Origin: Cystobacter fuscus
GTDB taxonomy: Bacteria; Myxococcota; Myxococcia; Myxococcales; Myxococcaceae
Direction: 5' to 3'
Assembly: GCF_002305875.1 (NCBI RefSeq)
Contig: NZ_CP022098.1
Location: forward strand, 7,564,001-7,628,000
Length of the DNA stretch: 64,000 nt
Positions 48,506 through 58,485 of this stretch are shown here, in pieces (position 1 is the first letter of the stretch; the number at the start of each line of letters is the position of its first letter). The notes beneath the pieces are model-generated. The model saw nothing but the letters and a program-made list of their open reading frames with translations, ran no database searches and had not been told where the DNA came from. The position numbers and the translations under genes are program-made.

Positions 48506-49458
48506 CGCCGTCGCCCTCGCCGGCCAGCGCCGCCTCCGCCCTCGATCGGCTGCTGCGGGCCCTGAGCGGGACGGTGCTCGGCCAGACCCACGTCGTGGCC
48601 GACCTCGTCACCGCGTTCCTCGCGCGGGGGCACGTGCTGCTCGAGGGCGTGCCCGGCGTGGCCAAGACGCTCACCGCGCGCAGCATGGCCTCGGCGCTCG
48701 GCCTGGGCTTCACCCGCGTCCAGTTCACCCCGGACCTGATGCCGAGCGACATCCTCGGCACCCACGTCTTCCGGCCCCAGGAGGGCGCCTTCCAGCTCAT
48801 GAAGGGCCCCATCTTCACCGAGGTGCTGGTGGCCGATGAGATCAACCGCACCCCGCCCAAGACGCAGTCCGCGCTCCTGGAGGCCATGGAGGAGCGCCAG
48901 GTCACCCTCGAGGGCACCCCCCACGCGCTGCCCCCGCACTTCTTCGTGGTCGCCACGCAGAACCCGCTGGAACTCGAGGGCACCTATCCCCTGCCCGAGG
49001 CGCAGCTCGATCGCTTCCTGATGCGGGTGCGCGTGGGCTACCCGCCGCCCGAGGCGGAGCTGGACATGGTGCGCGCCTTCCACCAGCGCCAGGGTCGCCC
49101 GCCCCAGATGGAGCGGGTGCTGGACGCGCCCACGCTGTTGGAGTTGCAGGCGCGCGCGGCGGCCGTGGCCTGTGACGACTCCATCCTCGACTACACGGTG
49201 CGCCTCATCCGCGAGACGCGCGCCAACCCCCGCGTGCGTCTGGGGGCCTCGCCGCGCTCGGCGCAGGCGCTGCTCGCGGCGGCCAAGGCCCGCGCGGCCC
49301 TGCACGGCCGCGACTTCGTCACCCCGGACGAGGTGAAGGCCGTCTGCCCGAGCGTGCTCAACCACCGCCTGCTGCTCAAGGCGGAGGCGGAGGTGGAGGG
49401 CCTCACCGCGGATGACGTGCTCCGCCACACGCTGGAGCGCGTCCAGGTTCCCCGGTGA
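48502..49458 (+). CDS. MoxR-type AAA+ ATPase
   Basis: 318 aa. Walker [11 protein letters not shown], sensor/Walker [14 protein letters not shown], then EERQVTLEG and [24 protein letters not shown] with the Arg finger region. MoxR proteins act as chaperones for metal-cofactor or complex assembly and are usually next to DUF58/vWA proteins, as here. Overlaps the zinc-ribbon gene by 4 bp and the DUF58 gene by 4 bp. Confidence 0.92.
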
Positions 49459-50780
49459 GCGCCGGCCGGCCCGTCCCCACGGGACTCGCCGTGGTCCTGA
49501 TCTCGCTCGCCCTGGTGCCCGCGGCGCTCGCCGTGGCGGGGGATGTCTTCCTCTGGCTCGCGCTCGCCCTGGACGGGGCGGTGCTCGCGCTGTGCGTGGG
49601 GGACTTTCTCGCCGCGCCACGCGCCTCGGACGTGGTGGTGCGGCGCGACGTGGAGCCGGTGCTCTCCTCGGGCGTCGCCCAGACGGTGCGACTGGTGGTG
49701 GAGTCGCGCGGCGCGCGGCCCGTGCGCGGACGGGTGCGCGACGAGGTGCCCTCCGGAATCGAAGTGCGTGGGCACGAGCAGCCCTTCTCCCTCTCCCCCG
49801 AGGCGCCCTCCATCACCCTGCCCTACTCGCTCACGCCCCTCACGCGCGGAGACCTGCGCCTGGGGGACGTGCACCTGCGCCTGCTCGGACCACTGGGCCT
49901 GTGCGCGCGGCAGGTGCAGGTGTCCGCGGCGCAGAGCGTGAAGGTGTACCCGGACCTCACCGCCCTGTCGCGCGAGGCGCTCGCGCTCACCCTCGCCTCG
50001 GACGCGCCCGCCGAACGCCTCCTGCGCCGCTCGGCCGAGGGCCGTGAATTCGAGTCCCTGCGCGAGTACCGCCCGGGTGACGACTACCGCTCGGTGGACT
50101 GGAAGGCGACGGCGCGGCGGGGACGCACCACCGTGCGCGTGTACCAGCCCGAGCGCAACCAGCCCGTCCTGCTGATGCTCGACTGCGGGCGGCACATGGC
50201 GGGCCGCGTGGAGGGCCGCCGCAAGCTCGACCATGCGGTGGACGCGGCGCTGCGTCTGGCCAAGGTGAGCCTGGACGCGGGAGACCTGGTGGGCGTGCTC
50301 GCCTTCGCCAGCGACGTGCGCGCGAGTCTCCCTCCTCGAAAAGGCCACGAGCACCTGCGCCTCATCACCGAGTCGCTCTACCGCGCCGAGGCCGCCCTCG
50401 AGGAGAGCGACTACGGGCGCGCCTATGACTTCGCCTTCGCGCGCTCCTCGCGCCGCTCGCTGGTGGTGCTCTTCACGGATCTGGTGGATCCGGACGCCTC
50501 GGGCACGCTGCTCTCGCGCACGCTCGCCCTGCGCCCCCGGCACCTGCCCGTGGTGGCCTCGCTGCTGGACGAGGATCTCCAGACGGCCGCCACCGCGATT
50601 CCAGACTCCGTGCCGGATGCCTACGCGCGCCAGGCCGCCGCGCGCCTGGAGGAGGACTACCAGCGCACCGCCCTCACCCTGCGCGACTCGGGAGCGCTCG
50701 TCGTGCGCGCCTCCGCGAAAGGCTTTGGCGCCGCCGCCGTCAATACCTATCTCCACGTGAAGGCACGCGGACTGCTGTAG
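49455..50780 (+). CDS. DUF58-domain membrane protein
   Basis: 441 aa from a GTG overlapping the moxR stop. Two N-terminal transmembrane helices ([36 protein letters not shown]), then the DUF58 core with [19 protein letters not shown] and [12 protein letters not shown], followed by a vWA-like C-terminal part containing [12 protein letters not shown]. Partner of MoxR-type ATPases. A displaced partial copy of codons about 310-380 lies at 52931-53124, inside the accessory island that begins at this gene's end. Confidence 0.88.
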
Positions 50781-50919
50781 CGCCCCGTGCCCCATGACTG
50801 GAGTTCGGCCGGAATGAGCACTGACTTGCCGCGCGATCTCTGGGCGGGCCTGCTCCTCACCATGCGGCGAATATGAAGGAGTACGGAGTCCCGATGAACT
50901 TCATCCCCTGGAGAGGGCC

Positions 50920-51390
50920 ATGAATGAGGAGCGTTCCTGGCAGGGGAACTGGAAGGTGCGCCTCCATGCGCGGGTCCGCGAGCGCGGATACTCTTCGCTC
51001 ACCGCCTTTGCCGAAGCGCGCCCCACCGTCCCTCTGGTGGCGCTGGCGGAAGAGCTCGGGCAGGACGACATCAACGCGGTGCAGGTATTGAGTGGGTTGC
51101 TCGCCGAGGCCGAGCAGCGCAAACAGGTGACGCGCTTCGAACGAGATGTGCTCGTTCGAATGCTCTCCCAGAGTCTCCCCGATGGCTGGCCGTCCGTCAT
51201 GGACGACCAGGCCCGTTTCACCGTCGGCAAGGCACTCGGCCGCTGGATCGGCTATACCCCCGAAGCCCATCAGGAGCGCTCCGAGCGGGTTGTCGCAGCA
51301 CTCCTCGCCACGCCGCCACCGCCCGGCTGGCGGCCACTCGGTCCCGATGATGAGCTACTGCGCACGCTCTTGCCAGACGAGGAAGCTTGA
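50920..51390 (+). CDS. Small acidic protein of unknown function (myxobacterial family)
   Basis: 156 aa. ATG preceded by GGAGAGG. Helical, with an early segment WKVRLHARVRERGYSSLTAFA and a C-terminal half containing YTPEAHQERSERVVAALL and a closing GPDDELLRTLLPDEE. I recall related sequences in myxobacteria near other accessory genes, but no biochemical role; this is recollection, not a search. It sits between the DUF58 gene and the cassette remnant, so it may be part of the island. Confidence 0.55.
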   Translation: MNEERSWQGNWKVRLHARVRERGYSSLTAFAEARPTVPLVALAEELGQDDINAVQVLSGLLAEAEQRKQVTRFERDVLVRMLSQSLPDGWPSVMDDQARFTVGKALGRWIGYTPEAHQERSERVVAALLATPPPPGWRPLGPDDELLRTLLPDEEA

Positions 51391-51470
51391 GCGTCACCTC
51401 TCCCCAGGCAGAGCCATACCCTCGCTCATGGGTGAAGCCAACCTCAAGGCCAATAGGGTGAAGACGCGGA

Positions 51471-51584
51471 CGTATTCGTTCACCTGGGGCCAGAGCCGCT
51501 TTTCTTCTTCTACCAAGGCGTCATGGATTCTCACCCATTCGCCTCCGCGATGTGTGGGACGGTGGGTAATGCGAGGGAATTGAT
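51471..51584 (-). pseudogene. Deletion remnant of the lipoprotein/partner gene junction
   Basis: On the minus strand the sequence reads ALPTVPHIAEANG and a stop, matching the last residues of the intact lipoprotein at 53990 (ALPTTPHIAEATW). In the overlapping frame it gives GTG-initiated MRIHDAL and then EEEKRLWPQVNEY, matching the start of the intact partner gene but missing residues 8-27 or so. The counterpart is 53877-54045. So a second copy of this gene pair once stood here and has been reduced to about 114 bp. The rest of 51391-51650 shows nothing else. Confidence 0.75.
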
Positions 51585-51650
51585 ACCCACCGCGGCCTTG
51601 AATGGCCTGGCATGTCCCCACAAGGGATTCATGCCCTCCGCGACACCGTC

Positions 51651-52025
51651 CTATGTGCCCATCTGCCTTTCCAGCGGAACGGTTTGCGGCACGATCAGAT
51701 CACCCGTGTGTAGGGTGGTCACGGTCTCGATCAGCATGATGCCGCACTCTTCGGTGGCTACGGGATTGTGCCTGGTCTTCTTCGGCACCACGCAAAACTG
51801 GCCGGGCGAGAGGTGCACGTCGCGATCCTCGAACTGGATTGTCAGCTTGCCGTAGATGACGAAGAACATCTCGTCTTCGTCGGCGTGGTCGTGCCAGACC
51901 AACTCACCCTTCAGCTTGGCGACCTTGATGTACTGGTCATTGACTCGCCCGATGATGCGCGGCGTCCAGTACTCAGTGACCTGTTCCAGTGCTTCCGACA
52001 GCCCGATGACGCTTCCATTCAGCAT
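51651..52025 (-). CDS. Cupin-domain protein
   Basis: 124 aa. Single cupin: motif 1 VWHDHADEDEMFFVIYG (metal ligands His-His-Glu) and motif 2 PGQFCVVPKKTRHNP (His). It resembles small bacterial cupins annotated as possible mannose-6-phosphate isomerase or dioxygenase relatives; the reaction is unknown. ATG at 52025 with GGAG seven bases upstream. Within the accessory island, flanked by the cassette remnant and the membrane protein at 52093. Confidence 0.75.
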   Translation of the reverse strand: MLNGSVIGLSEALEQVTEYWTPRIIGRVNDQYIKVAKLKGELVWHDHADEDEMFFVIYGKLTIQFEDRDVHLSPGQFCVVPKKTRHNPVATEECGIMLIETVTTLHTGDLIVPQTVPLERQMGT

Positions 52026-52092
52026 GACCTGTCTCCAGCAGCGTTGGTCCTCTGTTCGGTATAGTCGACAACGGCCCTCCAGACACGTGCGC

Positions 52093-52821
52093 TCAGGGCT
52101 GGATGGATCGAGGCTGAGGGTCTGGCTTCTTGACCGCCACGTAGCACCCGCCTTGGTACTCAGCCGTTCCCGGTGGGCAGGGGGCATCGCGGCGATGGCG
52201 CACCCAGCAGCCACCCCTGATCTCCACTTCCGTTTCGGGCATGCAAGGGGGCTTGCGCTGCACCTCGAAGGGCTTCTCCGGCATTGGATAGGCGATGGCT
52301 GAAGGGAGGTCCTGTCCATCCATCAGGACGGGAGTGTCATCGGCCCGGCCGCGCATTTTCGGAGGCGTGGATGTGCGCGGCCAGAGCAGGAAGACGAGTC
52401 CCACCGCCAAAGCCACGCCCGCGAGTCCCCAGCGCGTCGCCCGGTGCCGTGAACGGATGGGCCGTGGCCCACGCATGAAGTGGGCCCGCACATCCGCCCG
52501 CTCACCGAGTTGCGCCAGGGAGCCCGCGAGGCGGATGAAGCCCAGGGTCAGTTCGTGGAACCTCGGCGGCTTCGCCCCGTCCGTGTGCTTGGGGTGAAGA
52601 ACCAGGGCGTCCGGGTCGGTGAGCCTCGTGGTCTCCGCACACCAGGGGGTGGACGTGCTCCAATCGTCACCGGAGCCCGGCATCACGACCAGCGCGGGCT
52701 CCCCCGTTTCGACATGATGCGCCGCATAGAGGCGCCCTTCGTCCTCCGGGATGTCCGCGAACCGCTCACCCAGCTCATACGAGCCCAGACGACGTCCCTT
52801 CCACTCTGGCGTGTCGCTCAT
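52093..52821 (-). CDS. Membrane protein with Cys-rich C-terminus like myxobacterial Ser/Thr kinases
   Basis: 242 aa. The N-terminal region (RLGSYELGERFADIPEDEGRLY) looks like a degraded kinase N-lobe; one transmembrane helix follows (GLAGVALAVGLVFLLW), then a periplasmic part with GGCWV, APCPPGTAEYQGGCYV and a RSIQP end, the Cys-motif tail I associate with myxobacterial receptor kinases. There is no kinase domain, so it may be a decoy or a truncated receptor. ATG at 52821 with GGGAGG seven bases upstream. Confidence 0.6.
   Translation of the reverse strand: MSDTPEWKGRRLGSYELGERFADIPEDEGRLYAAHHVETGEPALVVMPGSGDDWSTSTPWCAETTRLTDPDALVLHPKHTDGAKPPRFHELTLGFIRLAGSLAQLGERADVRAHFMRGPRPIRSRHRATRWGLAGVALAVGLVFLLWPRTSTPPKMRGRADDTPVLMDGQDLPSAIAYPMPEKPFEVQRKPPCMPETEVEIRGGCWVRHRRDAPCPPGTAEYQGGCYVAVKKPDPQPRSIQP
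52628..52654. repeat. 27-bp near-repeat, copy in the membrane protein gene
   Basis: GTGGTCTCCGCACACCAGGG and the seven bases after it recur, with two mismatches, at 54729-54755, upstream of the lipoprotein gene. In frame both give STPWCAETT. Consistent with a recombination scar. Confidence 0.6.
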
Positions 52822-52930
52822 GTCCATGCCTCCCAAGAGCGACTCTTCCTACTCGGGATGTCGGGCCGCTGTCCAGACCCGATGGGTCAGAATGCACGGA
52901 AGTGGAACTGGACTCCCGGGCATCGAACGG

Positions 52931-53124
52931 ACCGCGCCGAGACGGCCCTCGAGGAGAGCGACTACGGGCGCGCCTATGACTTCGCCTTCGCGCGCTCCTC
53001 TCGCCGCTCGCTGGTGGTGCTCTTCACGGACCTGGTGGACCCGGACGTCTCGCGCACGCGCGCCCGGCGCCCACGGCACCTGTCCGTGGTGACCTCGCTG
53101 CTGGACGAGGATCTCCAGACGACC
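52931..53124 (+). pseudogene. Displaced duplicate fragment of the DUF58 gene
   Basis: Nearly identical to 50380-50590: both read [20 protein letters not shown], then [12 protein letters not shown], then LLDEDLQT. This copy has a small internal deletion (about 15 bp) and lacks the start, the core and the end of the gene. It ends 45 bp before the 3' end of the partner gene at 53169. Marks a duplication in which the end of the DUF58 gene travelled with the cassette. Confidence 0.85.
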
Positions 53125-53168
53125 TCCAACTCAGGAGCCCCAGGTCCATGCACTGCGGAGGCGTGGGG

Positions 53169-53993
53169 CTACTCACCCCCTTCTTCGGTCTCCGCCGCCC
53201 CCTGGACCCGCTTCGTCTCTTCCCACTCCGTCAGGGCGGAGGCCACGGGGTGGAGCGTGTGGCGCATCAGCCGCTTGTGGTGCACCGCGAGATAGTGCTC
53301 CCCAGCGATGGACACGAAATCAAAGGGAGAGGCGGGGTGGTTCTTCAACCACCCCTCTGCTTCCGCACGGGTATCGAAGGAGGGCGTCGCGGGAGGTATT
53401 CCTCTCGCGGCAAGTTCTGCGATGTACGGTTCTATGATGTAGTCCCGGTATATGCCGCGAGCGTTGTCTTCACGAGAATACCAAGCCAGATAATACTTAT
53501 CGCCAATGAGTATGCGTGCCGGACTGGGTGGCTCCTCGAGCCCCTTCAGCCAGGCCTCCGCCTCGTCATGTGCTGTGAAATGAGCGATGGCGAGTGGAGC
53601 ATAATCGAGGCGATTGTTGATGTAGTCCTCGACTGCGGCGAGTTGTTCGGTGTCGGCGATGAAGTTGACCAGGTTGATGAGGACGACTGCGGACTGCTTC
53701 TGTTCAGGGTCAGGCGCCTCGTCGAACGCCTTCAACAGAAGCCTCATGACCTCATGCGAGGTCGCATCCTTGCTCGCGTCGAGGGCGGGGCTCACGTGAG
53801 GGCGTGGCGTGGGAGGAAGCCCCCTGAGATAGTCTTCAAACAGGTAGACTTGGCCTGTTTCGCCGATGAATGCCCTGTATTCGCTCACCTGGGGCCAGAG
53901 CCGCTTTTCTTCTTCCCTGCCCTCGAGTCGAGCTGCTTGCCACCGGGCTGCGGCGAACCGTGATGCGCTGATCAAGGCGTCATGGATTCTCAC
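53169..53993 (-). CDS. Partner protein of the lipoprotein, candidate immunity protein
   Basis: 274 aa from a GTG with GGAGG seven bases upstream, overlapping the lipoprotein stop by 4 bp. Helical N-terminal half (RLWPQVSEYRAFIGETGQVY; VVLINLVNFIADTEQLAA); the C-terminal half contains two repeats of about 37 residues (139-175 and 206-240) with the shared pattern EAEAWLK...GDKYYLA and EAEGWLK...GEHYLAV. No signal peptide, so cytoplasmic. Gene order (lipoprotein first, coupled) and an additional broken copy at 51471 fit a toxin-immunity pair; no test has been done. GC is visibly lower than in neighbours around 53400-53560. Confidence 0.6.
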   Translation of the reverse strand: MRIHDALISASRFAAARWQAARLEGREEEKRLWPQVSEYRAFIGETGQVYLFEDYLRGLPPTPRPHVSPALDASKDATSHEVMRLLLKAFDEAPDPEQKQSAVVLINLVNFIADTEQLAAVEDYINNRLDYAPLAIAHFTAHDEAEAWLKGLEEPPSPARILIGDKYYLAWYSREDNARGIYRDYIIEPYIAELAARGIPPATPSFDTRAEAEGWLKNHPASPFDFVSIAGEHYLAVHHKRLMRHTLHPVASALTEWEETKRVQGAAETEEGGE

Positions 53994-54682
53994 CAGGTCG
54001 CCTCCGCGATGTGTGGAGTGGTGGGCAATGCGGAGGGATTCTTCGCAACGAGCACGATCGGCATCAGGATGAGAACACCTCCACCCGAGGCGGCGACCGC
54101 GGCAACGAAGGCGACTCCAGCGATGACGATGACGGAGCCCGCGAGAATCTCCTCGCGGTGATTCTTGATCCAATCCACCGCGGGCTCTATCGCATTGAAC
54201 TCCGCGGCATATTCCTCGGCCCATTTGCCCATTCGCCGCTTGCACATGTCTGCCTGCTTCATGCAATGCTCTGGACACCACCACTTCCTGGCTTCGCGCC
54301 ACGGCTGTATCTTGATGGCGTCATATCGCCAATGCCCGACCCACACCGGCCTGCTACTCGCGAGGCAGTCCTCCTGGCACTGGATTCGTCGGCCTTCGCA
54401 GTACTCGTCCAGCCCCGTCGAGGAGACGCGCACGCTGCCTCGGTTCGAACTCATCGCGCGCGTGGTGTACTGGAACGTCGTCAGGTCGAAGTCCTCAAGC
54501 GGCTTCCAATCGTGGATCACCCGCCCATCCGGCATCTCCTGGATGAGGAGCGCGTACCTGGCGAGATGGTGCTGACCGGTGGGGCCCCAAGCCGCGACAG
54601 TGGGTCGGGTGACACTACAGGAAACAAGGAGAAGGCTGAGACCCACGGCCACGAGCTTCCGTGGGAGCGTTCTGGTGGTCAT
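53990..54682 (-). CDS. Lipoprotein, candidate SitA-like toxin
   Basis: 230 aa. Signal with lipobox LVSC at Cys22; six cysteines (95-147) in a compact segment, then CPEHCMKQADMCKRRMG and a C-terminal hydrophobic region (179-213, IVIAGVAFVAAVAASGGGVLILM). No enzymatic domain is recognised. In M. xanthus SitA toxins are lipoproteins transferred by outer-membrane exchange with an immunity gene directly downstream; the arrangement here is the same, but similarity of sequence was not established. Weak ribosome site (GAGA). Confidence 0.6.
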   Translation of the reverse strand: MTTRTLPRKLVAVGLSLLLVSCSVTRPTVAAWGPTGQHHLARYALLIQEMPDGRVIHDWKPLEDFDLTTFQYTTRAMSSNRGSVRVSSTGLDEYCEGRRIQCQEDCLASSRPVWVGHWRYDAIKIQPWREARKWWCPEHCMKQADMCKRRMGKWAEEYAAEFNAIEPAVDWIKNHREEILAGSVIVIAGVAFVAAVAASGGGVLILMPIVLVAKNPSALPTTPHIAEATW

Positions 54683-54728
54683 GTAGGATTCTCGGGGTTG
54701 CGTCGGCGTCCGCCGCGTCGATGTCGAG

Positions 54729-54755
54729 GTGGTCTCCGCGCACCAGGGGGTAGAC
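54729..54755. repeat. 27-bp near-repeat, copy upstream of the lipoprotein gene
   Basis: Second copy of the 52628-52654 segment, GTGGTCTCCGCGCACCAGGG onward. It encodes STPWCAETT in the minus reading frame that continues into the lipoprotein gene. The 54683-54998 gap also holds an A8 run (54854-54861) and otherwise nothing recognisable. Confidence 0.6.
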
Positions 54756-54998
54756 GCGCGCACCACCTGGAGTGAAATGGGGGCCCCATGTACCCCAGGC
54801 TTCCGCGAGGCGCACGCACCTCGGTGGATCCCAGTCGCGCGGCGGCGTTCCCGAAAAAAAACCGTGCCAAGCGCGCCGGGGCCGATTTGTTGGCCCCCGC
54901 GAAGACCCCCTTTACAGATGCGTTTCGCTCCCCAAAATGGCCGCCCAATCGTGCTACACGCCTGTGTAGCGACGCACGACACGGACGGAGACAGGCGC

Positions 54999-57770
54999 TT
55001 GGCGGAGGCGAGGGAATTCAGGGAGTTGCGGGTGGTGGCGGATGCGGCGGCGGTGATGGCGTCGGAGGAGGCACTCTCCTCGGATGCCGGGCAGCAGGCG
55101 CAGGCGTTGACGCCCTTCCACGAGCGGCTGCTCGCGGAGGAGCTCACCATCAAGAGTTCGGACTCGCGCGAACGGCTCGCCGGGGCGCTCGCCGAGGCGC
55201 GCGTGGACTTGAACCCGCACCAGCTCGAGGCCGCGTGCTTCGCCCTGGACTCGCTCTCGCGCGGCGGCTGCATGCTCGCGGACGAGGTGGGCCTGGGCAA
55301 GACGATCGAAGCCGGCATGGTGCTCGCCCAGCTCATGGCCGAGGGCAAGACGCGCATCCTCATCCTCGCCCCCGCCGTGCTGCGCGCGCAGTGGAACAGC
55401 GAGCTGCGCGAGAAGTTCGACCTCGAGTCCGTCATGGTCGACGGCCGCACCGTGCGCGCCACCGGCAACTGCTTCGATCAGCCCTTCCCCGTCATCTGCT
55501 CGCACCCGTTCGCCGCCAACAAGGCCTCGCTCGTGGCGGAGATCCCCTGGGACGTGGTCGTCATCGACGAGGCCCACCGGCTGCGCAACGCCTACAAGGC
55601 CGGACACAAGACGGGCCAGGCCCTGCGCGCCGCCCTCCAGGGCCGCCCCAAGCTGCTGCTCACCGCCACGCCCCTGCAGAACGACTTGATGGAGCTGTTC
55701 GGCCTCGTCACGCTCCTGGACGAGCAGATCCTCGGCCCCGAGCACGCCTTCCGCACCCGCTACCGGCTGGAGGGCGAGACGGGCGGGCTGCCCGGCGACG
55801 CCGCCACCGAGCTCAAGGAGCGGCTCGCCCCGGTGGTGCAACGCACGCTGCGCCGCCAGGTGCGCGAGTACGTGCGCTACACCAACCGCCGCTCCATCGT
55901 GGAGGACTTCGCCCCCTCGCCCGAGGAGCATGATCTCTACGAGAAGGTGAGCGAGTACCTGCGGCGCTCCGAGGTGGCCGCCATCGAGCCGGGCAAGAAG
56001 ACGCTGCTCACGCTCTGCTACCGCAAGCTCCTGGCCTCCTCCACCTACGCCATCGCCCCCACCCTGCGTCGGCTCTCCGAGAACCTCACCAAGCGCCTGG
56101 AGGCGGCGCGCCTGGGCCAGCGCGCCCTGGGCTTCTTCGAGCCCGAGGAAGCCAGGCAGTTCGCCGAGGAGGGCGAGGAGTGGCTGGAGGACTCCTCGAG
56201 CAAGCCCGTGAGCATCCGCACGCTCGAGAACGAGATGTGGGAGCTCAAGCAGTACGCGGACCTCGCCGACTCCATCAAGGTCAACGCCAAGGGCGAGGCG
56301 CTGCTGCGCGCGATGGAGCGCACCTTCAAGGTGATGAAGGGCCAGGGCTGGCCGGAGAAGGCGCTCATCTTCACCGAGTCCAAGCGCACCCAGCAGTACC
56401 TGTGCACCCTGCTGTCGCAGAACGGCTACGAGGGGAAGATCTCCCTGCTCTCGGGCGACTCGGGCGGCGGCCCCGAGGAGCGCCGCGCGCTGGTGAACGA
56501 GTTCCGCGACAAGACGCAGATCCTCATCTGCACCGAGGCGGGCGCCGAGGGCCTCAACCTCCAGTTCTGCAACCTGGTGGTGAACTACGATCTGCCGTGG
56601 AACCCGCAGCGGGTGGAGCAGCGCATCGGCCGCTGCCACCGCTATGGCCAGCAGCGCGACGTGCTCGTCATCAACTTCCTCAACCGGCGCAACGCCGCGG
56701 ACGCGCGGCTGTACGAGCTGCTCGAGAAGAAGTTGAACCTCTTCGACGGCGTGTTCGGCGCGTCGGACGAAATCCTCGGCGCGCTGGAGAGCGGCGTGGA
56801 CTTCGAGCGGCGCATCCTCGACATCTACCAGTCCTGCCGCCACCCGGACGACATCAACGCCGCGTTCGACAAGCTGCGCTCGGACATGGAGGGCCGCATC
56901 AGCGAGCGCATGACGGAGGCGCGCTCGGTGCTGATGGAGCGCTTCGACGGGGACGTGCGGCGGCGGCTGCGCATCGCGGGCGCGCAGACGAAGGAGGCGC
57001 TGGAGAAGCGCCAGCAGGGCGCGCGCGCGCTGACGGGCTCGGTGCTGGGCAGCCACGCCTCGGGCCGGCTCCAGGTGGCCAAGGCTGCCTATGCCGTGAG
57101 GGACAGGACGCACGACGCCATCAACTACCTCCAGCTCAACGCGGCGGGCCTGCCCGCGCGACTCGCGCGCCTGGCGGGCAGCGAGGGCTGGTGGTTCGTC
57201 TACAAGTGCGAGACGACGGGCCTCAAGGCCGAGGAGCGCATGCTCCACCTGGTGCTGGTGCTCGAGCGCGACGGCAAGAGCTTCCGCGCCCTGCCGCTCG
57301 AGGACGGCGAGCACTTCATGAAGCTGGTGGGCAAGGAGGAGCGGCGCCGCCAGCCTCCCCCCGTGTCCGTGACGCTCATGCAGGAACAGGCGCTCATGGC
57401 CGCCAAGGACGAGGTGCTGCGCGCCGCCGAGCGCCGCAATGCCCTGGAGTTGGATCTGGCGCGTGAGCGCGCCGATCGCTTCGCCGAGGACTGTCTGCTG
57501 GAATCGCGCGAGGCGGTGGAGCGCGCGCGAGAGGCCTGGCAGGAGGCGCGCCGCCACGTGTGCACCCATGAGGATCCCGCCGAGCGCATGAAGGCGCGCG
57601 CCCACGCGGAGCGGCTCGAGCGCGAGTACCGCAAGAAGCTCGCCTCGCTGCGCAACGAGGAGGAGAAGCGCTACGCGGCCAAGGATCGGCAGATCGCGGA
57701 CCTCGCCAACAAGGCCAAGGTCACCGAGAAGCGCTCCCTCATCGCCTCCGCCTACTTCTGGCTGTCCTGA
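54999..57770 (+). CDS. SNF2/RapA-type DEAH helicase
   Basis: 923 aa from TTG at 54999 (GGAG eight bases upstream); an ATG at 54915 would give a poor N-terminus. Motif I DEVGLGKT (95-102), DEAH (190-193), TATPLQND, QRIGRCHRYGQQ motif VI (541 onward), then a long helical C-terminal part rich in charged coiled-coil segments (about 620-915). Resembles RapA/SNF2-like helicases that act on RNA polymerase or in defence systems such as DISARM. Without a defence partner, a cellular role is as likely. Ends at a terminator hairpin. Confidence 0.85.
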   Translation: MAEAREFRELRVVADAAAVMASEEALSSDAGQQAQALTPFHERLLAEELTIKSSDSRERLAGALAEARVDLNPHQLEAACFALDSLSRGGCMLADEVGLGKTIEAGMVLAQLMAEGKTRILILAPAVLRAQWNSELREKFDLESVMVDGRTVRATGNCFDQPFPVICSHPFAANKASLVAEIPWDVVVIDEAHRLRNAYKAGHKTGQALRAALQGRPKLLLTATPLQNDLMELFGLVTLLDEQILGPEHAFRTRYRLEGETGGLPGDAATELKERLAPVVQRTLRRQVREYVRYTNRRSIVEDFAPSPEEHDLYEKVSEYLRRSEVAAIEPGKKTLLTLCYRKLLASSTYAIAPTLRRLSENLTKRLEAARLGQRALGFFEPEEARQFAEEGEEWLEDSSSKPVSIRTLENEMWELKQYADLADSIKVNAKGEALLRAMERTFKVMKGQGWPEKALIFTESKRTQQYLCTLLSQNGYEGKISLLSGDSGGGPEERRALVNEFRDKTQILICTEAGAEGLNLQFCNLVVNYDLPWNPQRVEQRIGRCHRYGQQRDVLVINFLNRRNAADARLYELLEKKLNLFDGVFGASDEILGALESGVDFERRILDIYQSCRHPDDINAAFDKLRSDMEGRISERMTEARSVLMERFDGDVRRRLRIAGAQTKEALEKRQQGARALTGSVLGSHASGRLQVAKAAYAVRDRTHDAINYLQLNAAGLPARLARLAGSEGWWFVYKCETTGLKAEERMLHLVLVLERDGKSFRALPLEDGEHFMKLVGKEERRRQPPPVSVTLMQEQALMAAKDEVLRAAERRNALELDLARERADRFAEDCLLESREAVERAREAWQEARRHVCTHEDPAERMKARAHAERLEREYRKKLASLRNEEEKRYAAKDRQIADLANKAKVTEKRSLIASAYFWLS

Positions 57771-57778
57771 GGCCGCCC

Positions 57779-57802
57779 GGCCCCCTGCCTCCCGAGGGGG
57801 CC
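57779..57802 (+). terminator. Hairpin downstream of the helicase
   Basis: GGCCCCCT (57779-57786), loop of eight bases, AGGGGGCC (57795-57802): eight perfect pairs starting eight bases past the stop. No T-tract. Confidence 0.5.
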
Positions 57803-57850
57803 ACACGACATGTCCGGGCCAAGGCATAGGCCAGTCGTTACCCTGCCTTC

Positions 57851-58171
57851 ATGTCCGACGCTCGTCCCGTGCGCCCGCCCTGGAAGTCTGGCTTCGTGCT
57901 CGTGTGCAAGAAGTGCTCGGGCAACAAGAACCTGGACTTGAGGAAGTGGCTGGAGCGCCGGCTGGAAGCGGAAGGCCACGACGACGAAGTGAAGGTGCTC
58001 AAGGTGAGCTGCATGGACATCTGCCCCAAGGGCCGGGTGATGGCCGTGGTGCCACCGGGGCCCGAGGGCTCACCGGGCGGCTGCTACGCGGTGGATCCCC
58101 TCCACGAGCGGGAAGATTTCTACCGGCGCGTCCTGAAACTTCTTCCGGAGGATCATCCCAAGACGCACTAG
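57851..58171 (+). CDS. Thioredoxin-like [2Fe-2S] ferredoxin
   Basis: 106 aa. Cysteines at [20 protein letters not shown] and [19 protein letters not shown] give the four-Cys pattern of thioredoxin-fold 2Fe-2S proteins (CxxC near the N-terminus and CxxxC after the middle). It may pass electrons to a soluble partner. Overlaps the Smr stop by 4 bp (tail to tail). Confidence 0.75.
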
Positions 58172-58485
58172 GGCGCCCGGGGCTTGAGCCGCACCCAGGT
58201 CGCGCCCCAGCCGCCATCGGCCTCGGTCGCGGACCGGAAGGACTCCACTTCGGGAAGCTGGGGGAGGAGTGACTGGACGGTGCGCCTCAACGCGCCCGTG
58301 CCCTTGCCGTGGATGATGCGGATGTCGAGCACCCCGGCTTCACGGCACGCCCAGAGATACTCGGTGACGACGTCCTTCACGTCCCGGGGGTGGAACGGAT
58401 GCAGATCCAGGTTCCCATCCAACGGCAGCGCCACCGGCGCCTCGGGATCGAACCCGGCGTCCTCGTCCCCCTCGTTACTGGCCAC
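58168..58485 (-). CDS. Smr-domain protein
   Basis: 105 aa from GTG at 58485, just inside the end of the small secreted gene. Smr core [19 protein letters not shown] and [20 protein letters not shown]. Smr domains bind or nick structured DNA or RNA; stand-alone Smr proteins are common and largely uncharacterised. No partner nearby suggests a specific function. Confidence 0.75.

Follow-up and report, generated by a model that had tools for sequence, protein, structure and literature searches.

A partial DUF58 gene copy in a putative toxin-immunity gene array of Cystobacter fuscus and its possible origin by recombination-driven cassette insertion

The 64,000-nucleotide stretch of the Cystobacter fuscus genome analysed here (hereafter, the window; C1:7564001-7628000 of genome G000, which is assembled as one 12.35-Mb contig) carries a complete DUF58 gene and, about 2.5 kb further on, a partial copy of that gene embedded in an array of putative toxin and immunity genes. 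The account that we favour, with modest confidence, is that a cassette entered by recombination that duplicated part of the adjacent gene, the end of a donor's DUF58 gene having been joined to the gene of the recipient. The toxin and immunity roles named throughout are predictions from sequence.

A global alignment of the duplicated DUF58 segment with its partial copy has 213 columns, 186 matches, and one 15-base gap, which corresponds to 87.3% identity with the gap counted and 93.9% without it. Self-BLAST of the window returned the same pair (50380-50592 and 52931-53128, 87.3%, E = 1.2e-74), and a repeat search recovered it as two ungapped pieces (50380-50508 with 52931-53059, 95%; 50512-50592 with 53048-53128, 91%). 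The near-identity of 52931-53124 to the DUF58 gene, claimed in the initial annotation, is real, and its end had been placed correctly to within a few bases (53128 by alignment). The break that the same annotation put inside the DUF58 gene is absent: the gene, which follows a MoxR-type AAA gene, is unbroken. The fragment is an internal piece, covering approximately codons 309-380 of 441, so that the gene start and the last ~60 codons are absent. Among its ungapped codons that differ, 7 changes are non-synonymous and 4 synonymous, and the fragment therefore resembles a decaying copy. A second repeat runs in the same order within the window, between 51472-51581 and 53877-54040, and involves the gene that we call X; the two pieces of the X relic match gene X at 97.4% over 39 bases and 87.9% over 66, and the relic is colinear with the longer X of the relative G003.

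The region between DUF58 and an SNF2-family helicase gene reads, in order, DUF58, toxin relic, D, X relic, cupin, P, DUF58 fragment, X, lipoprotein, and helicase (Table 1). The fragment begins just upstream of P and ends just past the 3' end of X. Homology between G000 and its congener G001 extends beyond the DUF58 stop as far as 50862. The 44 matches to family D in G000 include the window gene itself and partial ones; we take D to be an immunity partner because 12 of 16 DUF2380 hits are immediately followed by a D gene. Searches with gene X (the window ORF and the G003 homologue) and with the 230-residue lipoprotein-like protein gave no family match, and the candidate toxin role of the latter is suggested by its neighbours alone. 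A scan of 50600-54900 found no promoter-like site and one terminator-like site, against 2.0 expected.

Table 1. Features of the variable region between the DUF58 and helicase genes (window coordinates)
Feature	Coordinates	Strand	Basis and remarks
Full-length DUF58 gene, 441 aa, left anchor of the variable region	49455-50780	+	PF01882, E 2.7e-30; full-length in relatives
Duplicated DUF58 segment	50380-50592	+	Repeat search, self-BLAST, global alignment
Relic, first codons of a lipoprotein toxin gene	50814-50861	+	Rest deleted; open in G001 (L039:1878-3422)
Family D gene, 156 aa, candidate immunity gene, orphan in the window	50920-51390	+	44 matches in G000
Gene X relic, two pieces (51472-51510, 51514-51581)	51472-51581	-	Self-match to 53877-54040
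Cupin-domain gene, ~124 aa	51651-52025	-	Cupin_2, E 1.6e-11 (longer ORF); start from G001 homologue
Family P, predicted membrane protein (by inspection)	52093-52821	-	Copies elsewhere in the genome; two in G003
Partial DUF58 copy	52931-53128	+	No gene end; 15-base deletion; common to G001
Gene X, candidate immunity partner of the lipoprotein gene	53169-54010	-	ORF, start approximate; homologues in G001 and G003
Lipoprotein-like gene, 230 aa, candidate toxin	53990-54682	-	ORF; lipobox-like start by inspection
SNF2-family helicase, right border of the variable region	54858-57770	+	SNF2-rel_dom and Helicase_C; start approximate

Several features of the array recur elsewhere. Tandem runs of D behind DUF2380-type toxin genes occur at three places in G000 (C1:7181160-7183335, 4501230-4503170, and 11083806-11085249) and look like immunity arrays. 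The name ‘DUSAM’ for family D found support in neither library searched (Pfam, NCBIfam). Family P (52093-52836 in this comparison) has further copies in the genome, one of them 85% identical at C1:6660616, and two in the G003 array; a P look-alike adjoins the cassette at locus L255. The window helicase (54858-57770) reaches 621 bits with the DISARM DrmD_b model, whose cut-off is 950, and by that model is a relative rather than a DISARM component.

The fragment is common to G001, a separate assembly from the same genus, in which it is 92.6% identical to that genome's own DUF58 gene, has the same two junctions, and has the same neighbours, P on its left and X on its right; from 51650 to 58173 the window aligns to G001 at 94.2%. 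Over 189 sites, both fragments differ from the DUF58 genes of G000 and G001 at 11-12 sites, from that of G003 at 15-16, from that of G002 at 19-20, and from those of six Archangium genomes at 21-25. Because the differences are fewest to the G000 and G001 genes, the fragment most likely stems from the window's own genus. Between G000 and G001 the fragments differ at 15 sites and the DUF58 genes at 4, as expected if the fragments are unconstrained.

The order in G003 is DUF58, ~2.8 kb of DNA, P, a toxin tip in frame with D, X, cupin, P, and helicase, so that P occurs twice around the block from toxin tip to cupin, the copies being 3.2 kb apart and 89% alike. The first ~2.8 kb after the G003 DUF58 gene (L040) holds ORFs with unusually low third-position GC and was probably acquired recently. 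By its flanking DNA G000 is nearer to G003 than to G001, with 210 differences in 4,770 positions of flanking DNA against 275 in 4,797, and 55 against 77 in 2,709 positions of the helicase gene. The last 300 bases of DUF58 show the reverse (13 differences to G003 and 9 to G001). G000 and G001 share the fragment although the flanks place G000 nearer to G003; the array would therefore have been exchanged between lineages, or the fragment lost in G003. One 34-base hit to DUF58 in the G003 spacer (85%, E 7e-4) was taken as chance.

To place the window among its relatives, we fetched the DUF58 loci of 60 genomes, 49 of which (G000 included) hold the helicase in the stretch retrieved; the 11 without it were left out. 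The search for fragments also covered 13 further named records, several of which are the same genomes. The gap between DUF58 and helicase is estimated at 20-187 bases (median 70) in 39 of the 49 genomes, and the other 10 carry inserts of 0.7-7.1 kb, some of which likely hold toxin-immunity pairs. DUF58 fragments lie beyond the insert in four of these ten (G000, G001, G043, and G010); at the search threshold the inserts of G003, G040, G042, G016, G013, and G071 had none. Short blastn hits in G097 and G099 (41 bases, 80-83%) fall beyond the estimated spacer, in the start of the helicase gene, and were not counted. Comparing the ends of DUF58 genes in relatives for partial copies, as the initial annotation had proposed, was productive, since G043 and G010 repeat the 3' end of DUF58 beyond the cassette. 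The G043 fragment has 129 bases, the last 120 of which are identical to that genome's own DUF58 end. Of the further proposal that cassettes use the end of DUF58 as a junction, the part that holds is that in relatives they sit at its 3' end; the fragment in the window lacks the gene end.

Different genes start just after the DUF58 stop in different relatives. The G001 insert encodes, ahead of family D, a lipoprotein-like protein of 515 residues whose C-terminus is DUF2380-like. The DUF2380 scores of this protein and of the G003 toxin tip are 26.7 and 26.4 bits, against a cut-off of 26.3; the domain is missing from the window locus, which retains no more than the gene's first codons. The inserts of G010, G040, G042, and G043 encode a protein with an HNH-nuclease domain and a signal-like start, and then a DUF4265 protein. 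These two domains account for the two main ORFs in G043, G010, and G042, which leaves little room for a recombinase. G040 has in addition an AAA protein and a DUF2357/PDDEXK_7 protein (L109, 3204-7112), which share the gap with the toxin-immunity pair and recall McrBC-type restriction. PADLOC assigned the G040 AAA protein to PDC-M26A (E 5e-37) and gave weak matches for the G040 HNH protein; 7 of 9 proteins had no PADLOC match. The gap between DUF58 and helicase may be a wider defence hot spot.

Which of two DUF58 ends is native can be judged best in G010, whose close relative G041 has no insert. The G010 fragment lies between cassette and helicase and differs from the 3' end of the G041 DUF58 gene at 0 of 53 positions, whereas the G010 full-length copy differs at 6 of 53; the fragment is thus the original DUF58 end, and the last ~50 bases of the full-length gene are foreign and came with the cassette. 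The spacer after the fragment also largely matches G041. Beyond those ~50 bases, the G010 DUF58 gene shows 25/350 against 26/700 differences (P = 0.02), which is suggestive only of a longer foreign tract. G043, in which both DUF58 ends share the same 120 bases, gives no direction. Nor does the window fragment give one, for its 3' part is gone and the X-lipoprotein cassette, not the helicase spacer, comes next.

Other cassettes lie between direct repeats as well. A self-comparison of 20 G000 regions holding D revealed such cases, and a first, looser look at 30 loci of relatives a few more; the bracketing test was framed after both. It counts a cassette as bracketed if both copies of a direct repeat have at least 30 bases, match at E <= 1e-3, and lie no more than 800 bases from the cassette. 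Cassettes came from 90 loci (20 of G000 and 70 of relatives) and not from all toxin hits; a cassette was omitted if its first 150 bases repeated those of an earlier one in the count, and only groups with D were included. Direct repeats bracket 11 of 93 D-containing cassettes in 11 genomes. With 5 set aside for want of full 800-base flanks and 6 for want of a toxin match, 82 toxin-plus-D cassettes remain, of which 10 are bracketed and 72 are not; among control intervals, all of them from G000, 30 of 10,000 placed in 20 other regions were bracketed, as were 62 of 4,770 placed beside G000 cassettes (1.3%, from 3 of 20 regions). By origin, bracketing was found for 3/18 cassettes of G000, 2/27 at the loci of the first look, and 5/37 at the 40 loci unseen beforehand. 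At E <= 1e-8, the corresponding numbers are 3, 1, and 4 (the last again out of 37), and 18 of the 10,000 controls.

In most of the clear cases the repeat is, by inspection, the end of a neighbouring gene. At L168 it is the 3' end of an AcrB-type transporter gene (182 bases, 96.7%), and elsewhere the 3' end of genes for a member of the phosphoglucose isomerase family (L244), an MvdD-like ATP-grasp protein (L254), a PLD-like protein (L265), and a molybdopterin-binding dehydrogenase (L278). The 3' end of a VWA_CoxE gene is repeated at L171, a locus with D only and hence outside the 82. Where the cassette is missing, the two sides of an insert can be seen joined: G001 lacks the L168 cassette, and the end of its transporter gene is followed by the DNA that in G000 comes after the fragment, and in the cassette-free G039, G042, and G010 the PLD-like gene of the L265 region is followed within ~30 bases by the post-insert DNA. 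Six of the 182 sites at L168 differ between the copies. In a reading of the alignment by eye, the fragment agrees with both G001 and G003 at 3 of them and with G001 alone at 1 (G003 not being comparable there), and 2 are split; the transporter-linked copy agrees with both relatives at none. Native and foreign copies can thus be told apart around the insert in G010 and, on balance, at L168.

The remaining loci are less clear. L276 (the same as L201, in G003) has a repeat of 202 bases (97%) that is the 5' end of a gene whole in G001; it was rejected as a further polarised case, the diagnostic sites being balanced (2 each way, 2 split) and the repeat a gene's 5' end. L166 was dropped as an example of an unrelated anchor gene: its repeat is the 3' end of an ORF, Y, that ends at the start of a lipoprotein ORF and is probably the cassette's own operon mate, upstream of it. 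At this locus (L166:6408-12988) two different lipoprotein-like ORFs begin immediately behind the two copies of that gene end, an arrangement that looks like the displacement of an older toxin. The repeat at L255 lies inside a P-like gene and is weak (E 3e-4), that at L173 has no clear gene, and a perfect 47-base repeat at L222, at over 800 bases from the toxin, is too distant for the test. At L217 (1214-4263), a 39-base repeat that by eye resembles a tRNA end surrounds a toxin-D cassette; ARAGORN finds no tRNA in the locus, and the tRNA assignment was dropped. Beside the second copy is an ORF whose match to an integrase N-terminus scores 19.0 bits, below the cut-off of 22.3, and L217 may be a case of ordinary site-specific integration. 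Dispersed repeats of ~95-125 bases lie near cassette edges at L265 (2887-3010) and L244 (2229-2450), and also at many other places in Archangium genomes.

We propose that the gap between DUF58 and helicase would be a landing place for toxin-immunity cassettes. The incoming DNA would bear, besides a cassette, a stretch of the donor's DUF58. Recombination at DUF58 would give the recipient gene a donor-derived end, and the incoming molecule would be joined at its other end inside or beside the recipient's own DUF58. The recipient would keep a whole DUF58 gene, with a piece of DUF58 left on the far side of the cassette, and repeated rounds together with decay could then have produced the present array. 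We infer that the window fragment arose by such an insertion before losing its 3' part. The molecular route may have been a single crossover of a circular molecule or homology-facilitated illegitimate recombination; both fit, and we lean slightly to the single crossover for the duplications, G010 being neutral. A cassette-borne integrase or transposase seems less likely because the inserts can be short (those between repeats, of 1,070 bases in G043 and 2,020 bases at L168, show two cassette genes only), repeat lengths vary, the genes involved differ, and clear terminal inverted repeats were not found (0 of 7 inserts scored above the shuffled 95% score, which L265 equalled).

For the window itself a serious rival, if on the whole an unlikely one, is duplication in place: a unit of ~2.5 kb, from DUF58 into the cassette genes, would have been copied in tandem and then partly removed by unequal deletion, with no DNA from outside. 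It is serious because DUF58 and X are repeated in the same order at similar spacing, the DUF58 pieces 2,536-2,551 bases apart and the X pieces 2,405-2,459. The doubled P of G003, around its toxin tip-D-X-cupin block, and the identical DUF58 ends of G043 would also fit; the divergence of the X relic decides neither way. Against this stand the differing ends of G010, where only the fragment is native, and the gene pieces that bracket cassettes at unrelated loci above the rate of control intervals.

If cassette DNA were inserted into a staggered break and the gaps filled in during end-joining, a long and variable duplication resembling that of a target site would result. Repeats of 33-229 bases, the want of clear terminal inverted repeats, and shortest inserts that show just two cassette genes are what this mechanism would give, and the balanced sites of L276 and identical copies of G043 agree with it. 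It predicts, however, that both copies are equally native, which G010 contradicts and L168 leans against, and we regard it as improbable. Still further down we rank a site-specific integrative element with the 3' end of DUF58 as its attachment site, like the islands at tRNA genes. That cassettes begin just after the DUF58 stop in several genomes, that G043 and G010 repeat this 3' end, and that a weak integrase-like ORF adjoins the second copy at L217 would favour such an element; the window fragment, however, lacks the gene end, repeat lengths vary, other loci use unrelated genes, and the G043, G010, and G042 inserts hardly accommodate a recombinase. The initial annotation had read the two copies as a possible integration or recombination point, and recombination-driven cassette insertion upholds the second half of this; nothing at this locus indicates a site-specific integration site: repeats range from 33 to 229 bases, other genes serve elsewhere, and the shortest inserts show two cassette genes only. 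An assembly artefact is scarcely credible for a diverged copy in a single-contig genome whose junctions recur in the separate G001 assembly.

Displacement arrays of this general kind are known. In Vibrio cholerae, T6SS effector-immunity modules are reported to be displaced sequentially (Kirchberger et al., 2017; PMC5361080), and homology-facilitated illegitimate recombination has been proposed for these toxin-immunity arrays (PMC5361080). As in the arrays described there, where new modules are added beside a conserved upstream segment and older immunity genes and 3' fragments are pushed downstream, different pairs follow the DUF58 stop in different relatives, and D is an orphan in G000, its toxin gene being open in G001. 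Whereas the fragment in the V. cholerae account belongs to a toxin gene in a T6SS cluster, the displaced piece here is an unrelated neighbour, such as DUF58, the AcrB-type transporter, the PLD-like protein, or the sugar isomerase family, and in one case an insert-free sister genome polarises the event. The cassettes resemble SitA6, the DUF2380 (PF09533) lipoprotein toxins described in Myxococcus (PMC12077181), in pairing a lipoprotein that has a C-terminal DUF2380-like stretch with a small partner gene at many loci per genome (PMC5562445, PMC12077181). They differ in that the DUF2380 scores just pass the Pfam cut-off and in that family D matches no Pfam or NCBIfam model, the SitA6 partner being given as double-CXXCG. 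A DUF2380 protein, pMF1.20, has been reported as a nuclease (PMC6091211), and the exchange of myxobacterial kin-discrimination toxins has been linked to prophage-like and other mobile elements (PMC5562445).

A laboratory precedent for the duplications comes from conjugation in Escherichia coli, where a duplication PCR product was obtained from 56 of 60 clones and, in the 14 that were sequenced, 109-950 bases of the homologous gene were duplicated. The duplications are attributed to single crossovers of circular DNA, and the 4 clones explained by homology-facilitated illegitimate recombination showed deletions (PMC3240628). The longer repeats found here fall in the range of 109-950 bases, the E. 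coli case being a plasmid system. Among the papers listed in searches of the open-licence literature, judged mostly by titles and the beginnings of abstracts, we did not find fragments of neighbouring genes described beside myxobacterial toxin cassettes. Toxin-immunity displacement arrays and DUF2380 lipoproteins as SitA6 are thus known, and because no such description was found in that literature, we take the use of an ordinary neighbour gene as the duplicated segment to be an apparently new variant.

A broader reading, which we offer tentatively and rather doubt, is that myxobacterial toxin-immunity pairs form a mobile system free of integrases, in which the repeats would allow a cassette to be lost as a circle and to re-enter at another place, with ordinary genes as landing pads for kin-discrimination weapons; each cassette would then travel with a short piece of the adjoining gene, recombine at that gene in a new host, and leave a fragment on its far side. 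The bracketed loci make the entry of cassettes at neighbour genes testable in laboratory strains. If small cassettes do enter at ordinary neighbour genes, the fragments would preserve a readable history of acquisition: the landing site of each cassette, the DNA that is native, and the sequence in which the cassettes were gained.
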